From the NCBI RefSeq assembly GCF_009766065.1, contig NZ_LMUE01000002.1:866514-930513 (forward strand): a stretch of DNA of 64,000 nucleotides, given 5' to 3'. The notes under the pieces were generated by a model, which did not search any database, was not told the origin of the DNA, and was given only the letters and a program-made list of their open reading frames with translations. The position numbers and the translations under genes are program-made. How positions within the stretch are numbered: the first letter of the stretch is position 1; every line of letters starts with the position of its first letter. Below are positions 43,460 to 58,485 of the stretch, one piece after another. The stretch is from Dyella sp. S184 (GTDB taxonomy: Bacteria; Pseudomonadota; Gammaproteobacteria; Xanthomonadales; Rhodanobacteraceae).

Positions 43460-44092
43460 TCAGGTTCCAGCAGCCAGCAACTCGGCAATCAAGACCTCAT
43501 GCCGCTGCCATTGCAAGACACTGCGCAGGCGCACCGCCCGCACAATCGCCTGCAGGTCGTCCAGGGCATCCTCGAACGCATCGTTGACCAGGATGTAGTC
43601 GAATTCATGCGCGTGGGCGATCTCGCCGCGCGAATTGCGCAGGCGGCGCTCGATCACCTCGGCGCTGTCCGAACCTCGACCGCGCAGTCGGCGTTCAAGT
43701 TCCGCCCGCGACGGCGGCAGGATGAACACGCTGACACAATCGGGCTTGCTGCGGCGGATCTGTTCGGCACCCTGCCAGTCGATCTCCAGCAGCACGTCGC
43801 GCCCCTGCGTCAGCAGCGTCTGTACCGTGGAGCGCGAGGTGCCATACAAGTTGCCATGTACTTCGGCATGTTCGAGGAAAATGCCCTCGGCGATTTCGCG
43901 CTCGAACTCGCCGCGCTCGACAAAGTAGTAATGCCGCCCGTACAACTCACCCGTGCGCGGCGGCCGTGTCGTGTGCGATACCGACAGCGAAATCGCCGGT
44001 TCGCGCTCGAGCAGGGCATTGACCAGGGTGGACTTGCCGGCACCCGAAGGCGCGGCGACCACGAACAATGTGCCTTCAAGCTGGGCATTCAT
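43460..44092 (-). CDS. gmk: Guanylate kinase
   Basis: The 210-residue protein phosphorylates GMP to GDP. P-loop VVAAPSGAGKSTLVNALL, then SVSHTTRPPRTGELYGRHYYF and the GMP-binding/lid region DVLLEIDWQGAEQIR are typical. It is normally near yicC and rph; here a 3.5-kb accessory block separates it from yicC. Confidence 0.96.
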   Translation of the reverse strand: MNAQLEGTLFVVAAPSGAGKSTLVNALLEREPAISLSVSHTTRPPRTGELYGRHYYFVERGEFEREIAEGIFLEHAEVHGNLYGTSRSTVQTLLTQGRDVLLEIDWQGAEQIRRSKPDCVSVFILPPSRAELERRLRGRGSDSAEVIERRLRNSRGEIAHAHEFDYILVNDAFEDALDDLQAIVRAVRLRSVLQWQRHEVLIAELLAAGT

Positions 44093-44414
44093 CCGATGGC
44101 ACCCAAACCCGCAGCGTGGTCGACAAACCGCACCACGTCAAGGTTTCGCCACTGCATTTTATGCACGCAGGCACAGGCATGGTGACAACGAATGGAATAG
44201 GCGGGCTTCATCGGGAAAGTATAGCGGGTGACCGCCGTCAGGCCGCCTGGGCGCCATAACGCCGCACGCATATAGTGCATAAAGTGGCGGTGGAAGCCGG
44301 TCTCCCGTTGCCTGGCTGCGGCCAAACCCAATGAGAACAGCCGGCTAATCGCTCGCTTCGTCCCTGACTCTCGTAGTCATCGTTCTGCGGGGATTTGGAA
44401 AAGCCCGACTCCCT
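44093..44414. other. Non-coding gap upstream of gmk
   Basis: These 322 bp hold the gmk leader on the minus strand. I see no convincing gene, RNA gene or strong hairpin. The composition is less GC-rich than neighbouring coding DNA, which fits the edge of an accessory block. Confidence 0.5.
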
Positions 44415-44657
44415 TCAAGCCGCCGCGGTGCTGTGTTGGATGGCAGGTCTTGCATACCTCGCCAGAAGGGTCATGCCGATGGGACAGATCATCACGACGA
44501 GTACCGCCATGCCGGTGTCGTCATGGGTCGCACGACCCAAGCCTCGTGCTATTCGTATGGCAGAGCCTAGACTTAGCTGCATGACCACGGGATTGATGTC
44601 GCGGCAAACGTTCCATAACCCGTCAGCACCTTCCTTGACCTTGATTACGATACTCAC
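44415..44657 (-). CDS. Small protein of unknown function, quorum-sensing block
   Basis: The 80-residue protein starts at GTG 44657 with GGAG 8 nt upstream. The N-terminal half reads MSIVIKVKEGADGLWNV then SLGSAIRIARGLGRATHDDTG, which loosely resembles small DUF2188-like proteins. The C-terminal half is hydrophobic (MAVLVVMICPIGMTLLARYA), possibly one membrane helix. It lies 35 bp after the fimbrial-like gene on the same strand. I do not recognise a family with confidence. Confidence 0.5.
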   Translation of the reverse strand: MSIVIKVKEGADGLWNVCRDINPVVMQLSLGSAIRIARGLGRATHDDTGMAVLVVMICPIGMTLLARYARPAIQHSTAAA

Positions 44658-44692
44658 ATCGGCAACTCCATGGTTTGATCGGATTCAACACA

Positions 44693-45088
44693 TCAATCGT
44701 AGGTCTGTGTCAGCAACACCGGGTCTGCACCGTCGGATCGACCTTCCTTGACGTATGCATCGAAGTACTTCAGCACTTGATCCGATACCGAACCCGACAG
44801 GCGCATGACCGTCAATGCATAGGTCGGCGATGCCCCTCTACTCGCGTTGCCGGATCTGTTGCAAGCCAGTCGATCCATGCGGACTTCCGTTTGTGATGCA
44901 TCGACCGCAGCCGCCGTGTTGTCCGCCGTCGAAACACTGCAAGTCGGCTCGACAATGGCACCTGAGAATGTGATCCGCCCACTTGCTGCCACGGCCGTTG
45001 ATGGAATGAACGTCGTCGCACACAAGCACATAGCAAGCAGGGTCACCGGGGAGATAGCCATGTCAAACCACGGTCGCACCTCATGCAT
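44693..45088 (-). CDS. Orphan type 1 fimbrial-like subunit
   Basis: The 131-residue protein has a signal peptide (MAISPVTLLAMCLCATTFIP...AVA) and the fimbrial-subunit opening SGRITFSGAIVEPTCSV. A second Cys (DRLACN) could form the family's disulfide. It ends DPVLLTQTYD, like the C-terminal donor strand of pilins. No chaperone or usher is adjacent; the Csu-type set at 60 kb is a different family. An alternative start is the ATG at 45061. It lies downstream of luxI on the same strand, 128 bp away. Confidence 0.65.
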   Translation of the reverse strand: MHEVRPWFDMAISPVTLLAMCLCATTFIPSTAVAASGRITFSGAIVEPTCSVSTADNTAAAVDASQTEVRMDRLACNRSGNASRGASPTYALTVMRLSGSVSDQVLKYFDAYVKEGRSDGADPVLLTQTYD

Positions 45089-45216
45089 GTGAAAAGCCGG
45101 CTCGCATCATTCGCGCCCGTAAAGATGGATCCCTGCGCAGCCTGCCTCATGACAATTGAGCTCTCATTCGTTCAGAGCCAAGCCCTCCTTTCGTACTACC
45201 ACCTCCGAACGAAGCT

Positions 45217-45828
45217 TTAATGTGGCATCCCTTTTGATTCTGTCAGTGGAAGCTGCAAGGCTTGCCTCGTCTGATCGTCCAATTCGATCCACAAGGCCAG
45301 GATATGCTCGCCATTAATCAATTGGGGTGGCCCAACACGATGCGCATGCATGCCGATGCTTCTGAGAATCCTTTCCATACCCATGGCCGTGAAGGTGATC
45401 AGCCGGGCAGCTCCATGTTCAATCGCCGCCCCGACTACAGCAGCAAACAACGCACAGAAACGCCTCCTGGCCTCGTCACGGGGAGGAGTGGAATCTTCGC
45501 CGATAGCCTTTGTGGTAAATCGCGATAACTCCCAGACATCCAATGCATGTGGTGAAGGTGCACCATTCATGAGACCCGGGGAGATTTCATCAAGTAAATA
45601 CGGCTGAGTCGTCGGCAATAACCGGGCGCAGCCACACACTGAGCCGCGCGCATCCCTGGCAATCACATACAACGTATCCGGCCGGTCAAACCGATCACGC
45701 TCCAATCCATTCTCAACCGGCAACTGCCAGCGCAAAGCCTCTACAAATACTTCGTATCTGTAAGCGGCAAGTGCCACCTCGAGGTCAGGTGACAGTTGAC
45801 TACCCATACCAGCCATCACTGTCAACAT
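45217..45828 (-). CDS. luxI: Acyl-homoserine-lactone synthase (LuxI family)
   Basis: The 203-residue protein makes an N-acyl-homoserine lactone from SAM and an acyl-ACP (or acyl-CoA). All the key residues are present in near-LuxI numbering: Arg24, Phe28, Trp34, Asp45 and Asp48 (ERDRFD), Arg69 (GCARL), Glu100 and Arg103 (VWELSRF). GGAG lies 9 nt before the ATG. A perfect 20-bp lux-box dyad lies 60 bp upstream, indicating autoinduction. It is divergent in layout from luxR, with rsaM between. The acyl chain cannot be predicted. Confidence 0.93.
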   Translation of the reverse strand: MLTVMAGMGSQLSPDLEVALAAYRYEVFVEALRWQLPVENGLERDRFDRPDTLYVIARDARGSVCGCARLLPTTQPYLLDEISPGLMNGAPSPHALDVWELSRFTTKAIGEDSTPPRDEARRRFCALFAAVVGAAIEHGAARLITFTAMGMERILRSIGMHAHRVGPPQLINGEHILALWIELDDQTRQALQLPLTESKGMPH

Positions 45829-45887
45829 TTGCCGTGTCTCCGCTGAATAGGGATAACGGCATTGAAGAATGATTTTTATCGAGCCAT

Positions 45888-45907
45888 AACTGTAGGCTTC
45901 TACAGTT
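45888..45907 (-). promoter_or_regulatory. lux box upstream of luxI (perfect dyad)
   Basis: AACTGTAGGCTTCTACAGTT: the two 8-nt arms AACTGTAG/CTACAGTT are perfectly symmetric. It fits the NNCT-N12-AGNN LuxR-type operator. It lies 60 nt upstream of the luxI ATG, compatible with a class II position at about -42. Confidence 0.85.
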
Positions 45908-46012
45908 GTGGACAGGAGAAACTCCGAGTATGGAATTTATCCGATAACGATTCCGGTAGACGGCTGGCGAACAGCACCGGTAACGTGCGGCCCAGAAAAA
46001 TAATCGCAGGGC

Positions 46013-46411
46013 TTAGAGGCCGCAGATAGCCTCACCGGTTTGCCAGCTTTCGCCTGACAACCACGCTCGCAACAGTTCATCGGTCCTATGCATGCCCAAG
46101 TCGTAACTGGTCTGCGTTACGAGCATGATATTGCTGTTTATCGCACCTGGTGCGATAAACTTTCGTCCATCAGCAACGCCAAACCAAGCCCATCCGATGC
46201 TGACCTGAAGCGCACCGTCGGTCGCCCATTCGCAGTAGCCTGCGCAGCAGGCCGGAACATCCTCTAGGATAAGATCCTGCTGAAGATCTTCATCTTCCCA
46301 TGCCAGCTTCCGGTGGAAGTTCAGTCTTGAAAATGCATCGAACGTGAGTCGTATATAGCCATCCAACGACCTTTTGGGGGAGACAGCACATGATGATAAC
46401 AATGAGTTCAT
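46013..46411 (-). CDS. rsaM: RsaM-like quorum-sensing regulator (DUF4902)
   Basis: The 132-residue protein matches my recollection of the RsaM/DUF4902 family: LDGYIRLTFDAFSRLNF near the start, then GYCEWATDGALQVSIGWAWF and APGAINSNIMLV...SYDLG, ending in WQTGE. RsaM proteins of Burkholderia and plant-associated Pseudomonas are encoded between luxI and luxR and restrain AHL production by an unknown mechanism. The position here is identical. It has no DNA-binding motif. The assignment is by motif and context; a profile search would confirm it. Confidence 0.8.
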   Translation of the reverse strand: MNSLLSSCAVSPKRSLDGYIRLTFDAFSRLNFHRKLAWEDEDLQQDLILEDVPACCAGYCEWATDGALQVSIGWAWFGVADGRKFIAPGAINSNIMLVTQTSYDLGMHRTDELLRAWLSGESWQTGEAICGL

Positions 46412-46477
46412 GGCGCTTCCCTTTAAAGACCCAGTGACCCCTGAGGCCTACCGTAACCCCGGCCTCGCATGACGACC

Positions 46478-46497
46478 AACTGTCAGTTTCCACAGAT
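46478..46497. promoter_or_regulatory. lux box between rsaM and luxR
   Basis: AACTGTCAGTTTCCACAGAT fits NNCT-N12-AGNN and shares AACTGT...CACAG with the luxI box. It is 67 nt from the rsaM start but only 17 nt from the luxR start. It is therefore well placed to activate rsaM and could block the luxR promoter. Confidence 0.7.
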
Positions 46498-46514
46498 GAC
46501 ACAGGATCATAAAA

Positions 46515-47228
46515 GTGAAGGCTTGGCGTGAAGATTGCCTGAATCGGCTCACTTCATCAGCAGGATCATCTGCTGAGGTCCTGAGAGAACTCGCCATCAT
46601 CGTGGGTGATTTGGGCTTCGAATACTGCTCCTATGTTCTGCGCGTACCTTTCCCTTTGTCGCGTCCAAGTGTCACATGGGCCAGCACATACCCCACTCAT
46701 TGGCTGGATCATTATTTCGCGAATGACTATCTTGAAATTGATCCACTCATTCAGCAGACATCGAAGAATTTGTCTCCTGTGGTCTGGAAGGATGATCTTT
46801 TCGAGAGCCAGCCAGCCTTTTGGGAAGAAGCACGCGCACATGGGATACGGCACGGCTGGGCGCTAGCCACTCATGGCAAGCACATGACGACCGGGATGCT
46901 TTCCCTGGCACGGTCACATCAGACAGTGACCTCGTCGGAACTGGCGGAGACTGAGATGCAGCTGGTCTGGCTATCGCATGTTATCCATGGGCTGATCGGG
47001 ACTGCAGAAATACAAAGACTCATACCTGAGCACGACTGCGAGTTGACCGCCCGTGAAAGTGAAGTGCTGCGATGGAGCGCTGCGGGCAAAACGGCAGATG
47101 CGATCGGGAGAATCCTGGGCATCTCCGAACGCACTGTGACGTTCCATATCGCAAGCAGCCTGACCAAACTCAACGTGACCAACAAAACGCAGGCCGTTGC
47201 GAAAGCCTTGCTGCTGGGAATCCTCTGA
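46515..47228 (+). CDS. luxR: LuxR family AHL-responsive regulator
   Basis: The 237-residue protein has an N-terminal autoinducer-binding domain with the conserved Trp55, Tyr59, Asp76-Pro77 (EIDPLI), Trp91 and Gly114. The C-terminal GerE helix-turn-helix (LTARESEVLRWSAAGKTADA ... SERTVTFHIASSLTKLNV) has the invariant Glu181, Leu185 and Gly191. The start is GTG with AGGA about 9 nt upstream. It is divergent from rsaM and luxI. It is the expected receptor for the LuxI product. Confidence 0.93.
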   Translation: MKAWREDCLNRLTSSAGSSAEVLRELAIIVGDLGFEYCSYVLRVPFPLSRPSVTWASTYPTHWLDHYFANDYLEIDPLIQQTSKNLSPVVWKDDLFESQPAFWEEARAHGIRHGWALATHGKHMTTGMLSLARSHQTVTSSELAETEMQLVWLSHVIHGLIGTAEIQRLIPEHDCELTARESEVLRWSAAGKTADAIGRILGISERTVTFHIASSLTKLNVTNKTQAVAKALLLGIL

Positions 47229-47358
47229 TCAAGGCGGTGCCACAGTAAATCCCTGGCACGACAGGTCTCTCCATCGTTTGGCAGCGAGTCATTCTTCTGG
47301 TCGTGATCTTCACGGTCGGTCGGCACTCGGGGCTAGCCTGCGGCCTTTGAGACAAGTC

Positions 47359-47378
47359 AACTGGTAAATTCTACAGGT
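47359..47378 (+). promoter_or_regulatory. Third lux box, upstream of a putative short transcript
   Basis: AACTGGTAAATTCTACAGGT fits NNCT-N12-AGNN. It matches the luxI box at AACTG and TTCTACAG. GATAGT (4/6 to TATAAT) follows at 47398-47403, the spacing expected for a lux box centred near -42 with a start near 47411. Confidence 0.6.
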
Positions 47379-47410
47379 TCACCCGAAGAGCCATCCCGAT
47401 AGTCTTCTGC

Positions 47411-47547
47411 CTCAGGTAGCTCTAGCCGAAGGATCCCCCGGCAGCATTGCCAACCCGGAATGCCAAGTGGAACGGATACACAGAGCGACCTCGTGCGTAT
47501 CATCGAAAGGACTCGCCTTGGCGCCCATCCGGGCGCCATTTTCTTTT
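47411..47547 (+). ncRNA. Candidate quorum-sensing-controlled small RNA
   Basis: The transcript of about 137 nt is inferred from the lux box/-10 upstream and the strong terminator at the end. No coding frame with a ribosome site lies inside it. Sequence gives no target. An alternative is that the terminator merely ends luxR transcription and the box acts on nothing or in trans. Confidence 0.3.
47519..47547 (+). terminator. Intrinsic terminator downstream of luxR
   Basis: A perfect 8-bp stem (tggcgccc/gggcgcca) with a 4-nt loop is followed by ttttctttt on the plus strand. It lies 290 bp after luxR and 70 bp before the convergent yicC stop. Confidence 0.85.
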
Positions 47548-47614
47548 CCATCTTCCTGTCGATGCCGCCCGTATCAACCGGGAGCAGGCAGCCAGACGGC
47601 CGCCGCCTGTAACA

Positions 47615-48475
47615 TCACTCGATGTTCTGCACCTGCTCGCGCATCTGCTCGATCAGCACCTTCAGCTCGACCGCGGCATTGGTGCTGCGTGCATCGACCG
47701 ATTTGGAACCCAGGGTGTTCGCCTCGCGGTTGAATTCCTGCATCAGGAAATCCAGCCGGCGACCGACCGGTTCCTTCAGGCCAAGTACGCGCCGCGTTTC
47801 GCTGATATGCGTGGTGAGGCGATCCAGTTCCTCGTCCACGTCGGTACGGGTGATCTGCAGCACCAGCTCCTGCTCCAGCCGCCCCGGCTCCACCGGCTGC
47901 TTGAGATCGGCCAGACGCCCTTCCAGCCGCGCGCGTAACGCGGCACGGATCTCCGGCATCCAGCCGCGCACGTCGGCGACCACGCGCTCGATGCTGTCCA
48001 GCTTGTCGCGCAGGATCTCGCCCAGCTTCTCGCCTTCGCGTTCACGGGTGGCGGTCAGCGCGTCCAGCGCGCGATCGAGTACATCGAACAAGGCTGCCTG
48101 TTGCGCCTCCGGATCCATCTCGGCCTGCTGCATCACACCGGGGAAGCGCAGCAACTCGGTGAATTGCACCTGCATGCCGGGAAACCGCGCTACCATGTCC
48201 AGGTTCAGTTCCGACAACCGGGCCAGCAGTGTGTTGTTGATCTGCAGCGATTCACTGCGCGCATCGCTGGCCCGGCGCACGGTAATGTCGAGTTTCCCGC
48301 GCGACAGCTTTGCGGCGATCCGTTCGCGCAACTGCGACTCGAAACTGCGTAAATCTTCCGGCAGCCGCGGGCTCAGCTCCAGGTAACGGTGGTTGACCGT
48401 ACGCAGCTCGCAACTAAGCGTGCCGGCGGGACCGGTGGTTTCGGCACTGGCGTAAGCCGTCATGCTGCGGATCAT
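47615..48475 (-). CDS. yicC: YicC/YloC family endoribonuclease
   Basis: The protein has 286 residues from ATG 48475 ([13 protein letters not shown]). The family opening [18 protein letters not shown]-type segment ([20 protein letters not shown]) and C-terminal [22 protein letters not shown] are all present. Members act as endoribonucleases in small-RNA and mRNA decay. It is divergent from rph, 93 bp apart. The upstream open frame to 48649 overlaps rph and is discarded. Confidence 0.94.
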
Positions 48476-48568
48476 CTGGGCGCCGTCCGGACGTGGGGAA
48501 AGAGCGCAATGGTAAACTCTCCCGTCACGCCTTGCCCAATCCGGCCAAGCGAAGTCAGGAAGCACCCC

Positions 48569-49300
48569 ATGAATCCCGTCCCCCGTCCCAGTGGTCGCGC
48601 CAGCGACCAGCTGCGCAACGTCAGCATCGAACGCCATTACACCCGCCACGCCGAAGGTTCGGTGCTGGTGAGCTTCGGCGACACCCGCGTGCTATGCACC
48701 GCCAGCATCGAGGACCGCGCGCCGGCATGGCTGCGCGGCAAGGGCGAAGGCTGGGTCACCGCCGAATACGGCATGCTGCCGCGCGCCACCAATACCCGCA
48801 TGCAGCGCGAAGCCGCTCGTGGCGGCCAGGGTGGCCGCACGATGGAAATCCAGCGGCTGATCGGGCGTTCCCTGCGCGCCTGCGTCAACCGCCAGGCATT
48901 GGGCGAGCGTGTGATCACGTTGGATTGCGACGTATTGCAGGCCGATGGCGGGACCCGCACCGCGGCGATCACCGGCGCCTATGTGGCCCTGGTCGACGCG
49001 GTGAACCTCCTGATGAAGCGCGAAAACCTCAAGCGCAACCCGATCGTCGGTGCAGTCGCCGCCGTATCGGTAGGTATTTACCAGGGCATGCCCGTGCTCG
49101 ATCTCGACTACGCCGAGGATTCGAATTGCGACACCGACATGAATGTCGTCATGAATGATGGCGGCGGCTTCATCGAGGTGCAGGGCACCGCCGAAGGCCA
49201 TGCATTCCGCCGCGACGAGATGGATGCCTTGCTGGCGCTGGCCGAGAAAGGCATCGGCGAACTGGTCGTGGCGCAGCGCGCGGCACTGGCGCAGGGCTGA
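48569..49300 (+). CDS. rph: Ribonuclease PH
   Basis: The 243-residue phosphorolytic 3'-5' exoribonuclease trims tRNA 3' ends. [20 protein letters not shown], then [19 protein letters not shown] and [19 protein letters not shown] are RNase PH signatures. The full C-terminal core is present ([17 protein letters not shown]). The ATG at 48569 follows AGGA. It begins the rph-rdgB-hemW run. Confidence 0.96.
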
Positions 49301-57354: not shown

Positions 57355-58485
57355 ATGCTCGACTACACCACGCTGCGGGTGATCTGGTGGGCCCTGCTCG
57401 GCACCCTGCTGATCGGCTTCGCGATCATGGACGGCTTCGATTTCGGCGTCGCCGGCCTGCTCAAGATCCTGGGCCGCGACAACGAAGAACGGCAAGTGCT
57501 GCTGGAGGGCATCGAACCGACCTGGGAGGGCAACCAGGTGTGGTTCATCCTCGCCGGCGGGGCGACGTTCGCGGCCTGGCCGACACTTTATGCCGTGTCG
57601 TTTTCCGGCATGTATCTGGCGATCGCGCTGGTGCTGCTGGCCTTTATCCTGCGCCCGGTTGGCTTCAATTTCCGCGGCAAGATCCATGATCCACGCTGGG
57701 CGTCGCTGTGGGACTGGGTACTCACCGGTTCCGGAGTGGTGGTGATGCTGGTCGCCGGCGTTGCGTTCGGCAACCTGTTCCTCGGCGCGCCGTTCCGGTT
57801 CGACGGCGACTTGCGCATGAGCTGGCATGGCGGTTTCTTCGAGCTGCTGCATCCCTTCGCACTGCTGTGCGGTCTGGTCTCGCTGAGCATGCTGCTGGCG
57901 CACGGTGCCTGCTGGGCGGCGTTGAAGGCCGACCACGCGATCGCGGTGCGCGCGGTGAAGATCGCGCGCTGGATGACGCTGATCTATGCCGCCCTTTACG
58001 TGCTGGCCGGTATCTGGGTGGCTTATGGGCTGTCCGGTTACGCGATAGGCAGCCCCATCGTGACCGACGGCGCCTCCAATCCGCTCTACAAGCAGGTCGC
58101 CGTCGGTGGTAGCTGGTTTGCCAGCTACATGCAATATCCGTGGTTCTGGATCGCACCGGTCCTGGCGCTGGTCTCGGCCGTCGGCGTACAGGCGTTGATC
58201 GGCCGGCGCAGCGTTGCCGGCTTCATCGCCAGCAGCCTGATGGTCGGCAGCACGATCGCCTCGGCCGGTTTCGCGCTGTTCCCCTTCCTGCTGCCGTCCA
58301 GCCTCGATCCGCGTTCCAGCCTCACCGTATGGGACGCGTCCTCCAGCCAGGGCACCTTGCAGTTGATGCTGATCGTCACCGTCGTGCTGCTGCCGATCGT
58401 TTTGCTCTATACCAGCTGGGTGTACCGCGTGATGCGCGGGCGGGTCACCCTCGAACAGGTGCGCAAAGCGCATGGCGGTTATTGA
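57355..58485 (+). CDS. cydB: Cytochrome bd ubiquinol oxidase subunit II
   Basis: The 376-residue protein has eight or more hydrophobic helices. It opens [20 protein letters not shown], then [11 protein letters not shown] and [20 protein letters not shown], the CydB signature. It is the second core subunit of the oxidase, 10 bp after cydA and 15 bp before cydX. Confidence 0.97.

Follow-up and report, generated by a model that had tools for sequence, protein, structure and literature searches.

Organization of the lux locus

The 64-kb stretch of DNA analyzed here (the window) contains a luxI-type AHL synthase gene at 45217 to 45828 on the minus strand (Pfam Autoind_synth, E = 4.3e-23), an rsaM-type gene at 46013 to 46411 on the same strand (DUF4902, PF16245, E = 1.1e-24), and a luxR-type regulator gene at 46515 to 47228 on the plus strand (Autoind_bind, E = 4.1e-37; GerE, E = 6.1e-19). 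Three relatives of the encoded LuxR were found among named genomes, those of Rhodanobacter sp. C05, B04, and C01. The relevant passages of a review equate rsaM with pfam16245 and name Rhodanobacter among its carriers (PMC10710839). Lux-like sites were scored over 12 half-site positions. Lux box 1 (AACTGTAGGCTTCTACAGTT on the plus strand, 45888 to 45907), upstream of luxI, scores 12/12; lux box 2 (46478 to 46497), between rsaM and luxR, scores 11/12; and lux box 3 (AACTGGTAAATTCTACAGGT, 47359 to 47378, plus strand) again scores 12/12. Box 3 lies downstream of luxR with no gene behind it, just as an earlier note on this DNA had described, and is the putative promoter element of an RNA gene. The -10-like hexamer GATAGT that the same note had pointed out is indeed read at 47398 to 47403 (plus strand), and the intrinsic terminator it had reported occupies 47519 to 47548, with the stem TGGCGCCCATCCGGGCGCCA at 47519 to 47538 followed by the U-rich tail TTTTCTTTTC. 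The predicted small RNA, about 137 nt long, would span 47411 to 47547 on the plus strand, its 5' end being placed 42.5 nt beyond the center of box 3. A convergent gene, which we take to be yicC, ends at 47615.

Taken singly, neither the box, the -10 hexamer, nor the terminator is beyond chance in the window sequence. The pattern CTG-N10-CAG occurs 33 times in the window versus 25.0 times in shuffles, a sigma-70 scan called no promoter at box 3 or GATAGT, and a terminator scan returned 2 sites in 5 kb versus 4.2 in shuffles. Five lux-like sites in the window score at least 11/12, whereas 30 shuffles averaged 0.83. Those at 45888, 46478, and 47359 belong to the lux locus; the other two (29214 and 57520) are presumably due to chance. 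The latter, at 57520 to 57539, is a palindrome (ACCTGGGAGGGCAACCAGGT) that scores 12/12 but is remote from the lux locus, and its resemblance is probably fortuitous.

Conservation of the unit downstream of luxR

When the luxR-to-yicC interval was used as a query, matches were obtained in 5 of 45 genus genomes, including the window's own (G000), and all five stand after luxR (G000, G013, G015, G016, and G025). Because of this conservation, the box-to-terminator unit rises above chance. In the most distant carrier, G025, the match covers query positions 131 to 319, which correspond to window positions 47359 to 47547, exactly the extent that the earlier note had given to the unit. The luxR-to-box interval and the downstream flank of G025 do not align with the window, and the frames around the island differ. 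Where the window has GATAGT, the -10 region of the relatives reads GATAAC, TATATC, or a CTATC-like sequence.

Identity to the window across the box, the RNA body, and the terminator was 95, 88, and 97% in G015; 90, 89, and 100% in G016; 90, 79, and 97% in G013; and 75, 72, and 83% in G025. At fourfold-degenerate sites of luxR, identity to the window was 66.9, 76.0, 67.5, and 51.5% in the same four genomes, and the RNA body is the slower changing of the two in all four relative-window pairs. Since RNA body identity exceeds that at fourfold-degenerate luxR sites, we read the RNA body as being under purifying selection outside any protein gene. The interval between luxR and the box is less conserved (14 to 67%) than the RNA body (72 to 89%).

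Close LuxR homologs (E up to 1e-40) occur in 12 of the 45 genomes of the genus and in 22 of the 233 of the family, and all five carriers have one. The hypergeometric probability of finding the carriers among the genomes with a LuxR homolog is 6.5e-4 in the genus and 4.8e-6 in the family, values that ignore shared ancestry. The earlier note had staked its proposal on conservation of the unit in relatives. The outcome is mixed: of the 12 genus genomes that encode such a LuxR homolog, five have the unit, and it was not found in the other seven, in all of which the DNA after luxR was read. Two of these seven genomes are less than 90% complete. Also among the seven is G040, whose LuxR is 83% identical, as near as the LuxR of the carrier G025 (82%).

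A dispersed family of copies

A covariance model of the five luxR-linked RNAs (R1) detected further strong copies in G025, G000, and G013 (42 to 97 bits), and in the five strong copies that were read, a lux box stands upstream of each. A second covariance model that includes the lux box (R2), run like R1 with stricter filters that can lose weak matches, gave 13 matches in 233 family genomes; all fall within the five Rhodanobacter carriers, with no match in the other 228 genomes (188 of them outside the genus). A 14th copy, which is partial, came from a pattern search. Eleven copies are intact, with box, helix, and terminator (two in G000, four in G013, one in G015, two in G016, and two in G025), and further dispersed copies occur in four of the five carrier genomes. 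Three partial copies, G000c (L105), G013e (L106), and G025c (L115), have kept the lux box and lost the 3' end of the RNA; they were left out of the 11-member counts because the family terminator was not seen. The distance from the box center to the first helix (P1) is 43.5 to 45.5 nt in the 11 intact copies. The comparison shows the box, this spacing, P1, the tail described below, and the terminator evolving together as one unit. A covariance search had been suggested in the earlier note, and it bore out conservation by revealing these further copies in four carrier genomes, each with a lux box. The multi-copy nature of the unit, which that note had missed, is its more unusual part.

The range of the family was also surveyed more widely. 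Of 369 genomes drawn from the class, only G000 matched, with none among the 368 others; one exact pattern had 0 matches in viral contigs, and plasmid records gave no match. R1 matched 51 of the 233 genomes of the family at E up to 0.01 and, at the level of the order, 57 of 398. Twenty-three of its weak matches (below 32 bits) were read, 3 by eye and 20 by scoring, and the best boxes of the scored ones reached 7 to 10 of 12. Because such box scores are those of random sequence, the weak matches were taken as chance. Searches of Rfam 15 gave no match in window positions 44000 to 49000 at E up to 1 and none in eight loci with copies at the gathering score.

Structure of the predicted RNA

Helix P1 is formed by 47414 to 47422 (AGGUAGCUC) and 47483 to 47491 (GAGCGACCU), both on the plus strand. 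Over the 11 intact copies, 88 of 98 cells are paired, and four of the nine pairs have changed on both sides in a compensatory manner. The covariation of P1 is 0.347 versus 0.252 in shuffles and was reached by 0 of 500, a figure that, like the other shuffle counts given here, is not a probability, since the structure itself was built from these sequences, which share ancestry, and sequences so related can exceed covariation shuffles of this kind. When the partner strand was slid, covariation was at most 0.178 and pairing fell to 20 to 46%. The number of pair types in P1 is not above that in shuffles (229/500). For the whole structure, the covariation score was reached by 1 of 500 shuffles, and neither the doubly changed pairs (96/500) nor the pair types (469/500) are unusual.

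Hairpin P3 (47444 to 47463, plus strand; GCAUU...AAUGC) lacks its 3' side in two copies, G013c and G016b, and the outer six stem pairs of the terminator are kept in 11/11 copies. Folding energy is unremarkable, with a z score of -1.75 when the terminator is included and scores of -0.05, -0.06, -0.13, +1.21, and -0.98 for the five luxR-linked RNAs cut before the terminator. For the G016 RNA, energy minimization gives a different fold, in which P1 is absent.

A conserved tail, GUGCGUAUCAUCGAAAGGACUCGCCUU, lies at 47493 to 47519 (plus strand) and is the proposed pairing region. It is unpaired in a 10-sequence consensus; in the five-sequence consensus of the luxR-linked RNAs, AAGG and CCUU inside the tail may pair as a small hairpin. 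In the 11 copies, the tail ends with CTCGCCTT (three copies), CTCACCTT (two), CTCATCTT (one), TACACCTC (three), TACATCTT (one), or TACATTTC (one). Two types can be told apart, GGACUCRYCUU near luxR and in G025b and mostly GGAUACAYCUY in the other copies.

Proposed function and target searches

We consider it probable, at roughly 0.7, that 47359 to 47547 is the gene of a trans-acting sRNA activated by LuxR-AHL and that it is one member of a dispersed family. At high cell density, AHL made by LuxI would bind LuxR, supplied by the gene just upstream, and LuxR-AHL would then bind box 3, which overlaps the -35 position and has its center 42.5 bp before the start, and would activate transcription. 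Activation rather than repression at box 3 is suggested by the position of the box and by its likeness to the luxI box. A lux box centered at -42.5 is the usual activating geometry. With P1 beginning 43.5 to 45.5 nt past the box center, this geometry places the predicted RNA start 1 to 3 nt before P1, so that the predicted 5' end near 47411 agrees with the spacing between box and P1 and gains indirect support from it. The product would be noncoding and about 137 nt long, with P1 closing it and the conserved tail preceding its intrinsic terminator. The tail would pair with mRNAs near the ribosome site and alter their translation or stability, base pairing being, we infer, the most likely action of the RNA, and the copies of the family would add to one quorum-controlled RNA dose. 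A bolder version, to which we would give a little less than even odds, is that up to four intact copies per genome form a multi-copy family of LuxR-activated RNAs, that their lux-box promoters feed one pool as a high-density mirror image of the Vibrio Qrr RNAs, and that the two tail types (GGACUC and GGAUAC) split the targets. If this is true, one RNA pool would carry the quorum signal to mRNAs.

Target searches yielded nothing convincing. Duplexes of the tail with the luxR, rsaM, and luxI starts in the five genomes were no better than those of shuffled tails; for the 15 starts, the fraction of 200 shuffled tails that did at least as well was 0.08 to 0.845. In the same number of genomes, the antisense of the luxR-linked tail had 14 forward and 15 reverse matches, own sites included, versus 14 and 14 for a reversed control, and at the 10 loci inspected, the recurrent matches fall inside long frames that are open on at least one strand. 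For the second tail type, the antisense matched 107 times in three genomes, counting own sites, and its reversed control 39 times, an excess that we are inclined to distrust because the reversed pattern differs in word composition. Thirty of these 107 loci were inspected, five of them being the copies themselves. Four have the possible start of a frame of at least 100 codons 33 to 43 nt past the first base of the site, and none has one nearer.

Alternative explanations

The RNA could work by protein binding rather than base pairing, for example by titrating RsmA/CsrA through GGA motifs, which we regard as unlikely. The luxR-linked RNAs carry four to five GGA each, and 10 of the 11 copies have retained one in the tail. 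However, the number is not constant, being 1, 1, 2, 3, 3, and 1 in six dispersed copies, and at 1 to 5 GGA per copy over all 11 copies, the family lacks the abundance of GGA throughout that characterizes CsrB/RsmY-type RNAs. The excess is also weak in the five luxR-linked RNAs, with P values from 0.0175 (window) to 0.22 (G025) by letter shuffles and from 0.023 to 0.4 by dinucleotide shuffles, and Rfam gave no match.

Similarly improbable is the idea that the box serves a divergent gene, whether one with RHS repeats or one for a small protein that starts with MPHTIYVVQG, or that it acts as a LuxR decoy, with the RNA as a by-product. Divergent frames do occur at several copies. G000b, G016b, and G000c, the last of them partial, have a small frame across the box (77 to 81 aa from its first start codon, with MPHTIYVVQG in it). 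The frame divergent from G013b is at least 1,482 aa long and has RHS repeats (Pfam E = 8.2e-50), and that divergent from G013c is at least 1,397 aa long, with DNA that partly aligns with the RHS frame of G013b. At the luxR-linked site, in contrast, G025 has what looks like a frameshifted version of the small gene, and none was seen in the window or in G013, G015, and G016, while the box and the RNA remain. At this site, it is the RNA side that stays constant. Neither the covariation of P1 nor the slow change of the RNA body is expected of a by-product.

Still less probable is that the unit is a short mRNA whose function lies in a small peptide. An open frame of 50 aa is present at 47460 to 47612, and as far as the terminator loop, the alignment of the five luxR-linked copies is gap-free over the 3' half of the unit. 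This frame, however, crosses the terminator, so that the transcript would lack its stop codon, and no ribosome site was seen before its ATG. The earlier note had held that no plausible coding frame with a ribosome site fits the unit, and the comparison agrees. Each of the six frames, counted from the first base of each sequence, is interrupted by a stop in at least one of the 11 copies; substitutions in the luxR-linked set are spread evenly over the three positions, without codon periodicity (5, 4, and 5 in G015; 10, 15, and 11 in G025); and G016 and G013 carry single-base indels. Finally, that this is merely the luxR terminator region with a chance lux-like site, as the position directly after luxR and the chance level of the single signals might suggest, is very improbable, being contradicted by the copies found elsewhere than at luxI-luxR, complete with box and terminator, and by the lower conservation of the luxR-to-box interval than of the RNA body.

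Of the quorum-controlled sRNA that had been proposed, then, a noncoding lux-box unit is what the comparison supports, through conservation, a covarying helix, slow change, and box-carrying paralogs; its transcription, the start at 47411, and the response to AHL are predictions.

Comparison with known quorum-controlled RNAs

In the usual picture of an AHL quorum circuit, LuxR acts on the promoters of protein genes. The Qrr RNAs of Vibrio, a family present in Rfam, occur in several copies per genome, each with its own quorum-linked promoter, and their genes are driven by sigma-54 and LuxO at low density. The family described here resembles Qrr in having several sRNA copies per genome, each with its own (here predicted) quorum-linked promoter, but differs in its LuxR-type box, its presumed activity at high density, and its lack of an Rfam match. 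The sigma-54 promoter consensus is TGGCAC-N5-TTGCW, and no such site with up to two mismatches was found between 45239 and 51090. The esaS RNA of Pantoea stewartii is controlled by EsaR at its own locus; the present RNA likewise lies at the locus of its LuxR-type protein, by which it would be controlled.

Few sRNAs activated by LuxR-type proteins are described in the passages available from the literature, namely, Lrs1, Lrs2, and RhlS (PMC3460626, PMC6739362, PMC6786874). According to these passages, Lrs1 and Lrs2 are sRNAs that Pseudomonas aeruginosa controls through LasR; the pqsA-E operon has lrs1 upstream of it, LasR dependence was demonstrated by fusions and Northern blotting, and Lrs1 is needed for lasR expression, giving positive feedback (PMC3460626, PMC6739362). 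Hfq binding is shown there for Lrs1 and not for Lrs2 (PMC3460626). Our unit is like these in being an sRNA with a site for a LuxR-type protein, although it is known by sequence only. A LuxR-type box stands in the window (12/12) and before all 11 intact copies, and the predicted RNA appears noncoding, with its own terminator in 11/11 copies and no conserved frame. It differs in forming a set of copies; the passages on Lrs1 and Lrs2 speak of none, and it is by description that the family is set apart from them.

RhlS, as portrayed in the corresponding passages, is an sRNA of about 70 nt that arises from the 5' leader of rhlI and the rhlI promoter, in the rhlR-rhlI locus and under LasR control (PMC6786874). 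The present RNA is similar in being an sRNA in a luxR-luxI-type locus with an intrinsic terminator, its quorum control being predicted. Unlike RhlS as described there, it is preceded by a lux box of its own, which lies beyond luxR and has no gene behind; it does not come from a luxI leader, luxI (45217 to 45828) being on the other strand. The novelty that the earlier note saw in a quorum-controlled sRNA at such a locus must therefore be narrowed, since RhlS precedes it (PMC6786874) and Lrs1 and Lrs2 are LasR controlled (PMC3460626). LuxR-type-controlled sRNAs were already known, and given these precedents and the lack of an Rfam match, what appears to be new is a dispersed multi-copy family with dedicated lux boxes. 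The RsaM review mentions no sRNA at the rsaM locus in its passages on RNA and intergenic regions (PMC10710839), and the available part of PMC7883899 deals with EanR and a lux box rather than with an sRNA there. Among the papers listed by literature searches, which covered a minority of subscription papers, none concerns an sRNA in Rhodanobacter quorum sensing. A lineage-specific family with a lux box in every intact member would be a compact case of an AHL system gaining an RNA arm, and such arms might be found elsewhere by seeking covarying RNA behind orphan lux boxes.

Neighborhoods of the copies

A second luxR copy, encoding an 83% identical protein, is present in G000 (L032 1501 to 2214; G000:C14:1683494-1684207) and in G013 (L033; G013:C12:108017-108730), and no lux box was found by the score used in the fetched flanks of either. 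The intact copy G000b lies about 3.4 kb beyond the second luxR in G000, and G013d lies about 12 kb away from it in G013.

The small protein beginning MPHTIYVVQGF is encoded divergently from the lux box, at about -42 to -287 (L065, L104, and L105). Its L065 copy has no Pfam match; in G025, the relative that looks frameshifted is situated after luxR and before the box. The RHS-repeat frame beside G013b occupies L066 3 to 4448 on the minus strand, and the long frame beside G013c, with DNA partly like it, occupies L067 1 to 4191, also on the minus strand. G013d is divergent from a YadA-type trimeric autotransporter gene (L068 5867 to 10627, plus strand) that lies beyond a 121-aa frame. All three of these neighbors are possible quorum-controlled contact proteins.

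A conserved stretch around TGTCATCAGAAGACA, an imperfect palindrome, lies about 10 to 25 nt before the box core in L064, L065, L104, L105, and L106 and is perhaps a second operator. In G016, L007 6804 to 6887 (minus strand), near a gene that is presumably gmk, is similar to the sequence immediately past the terminator (nhmmer E = 0.0013), as though the lux island were bounded in that genome by a short direct repeat.
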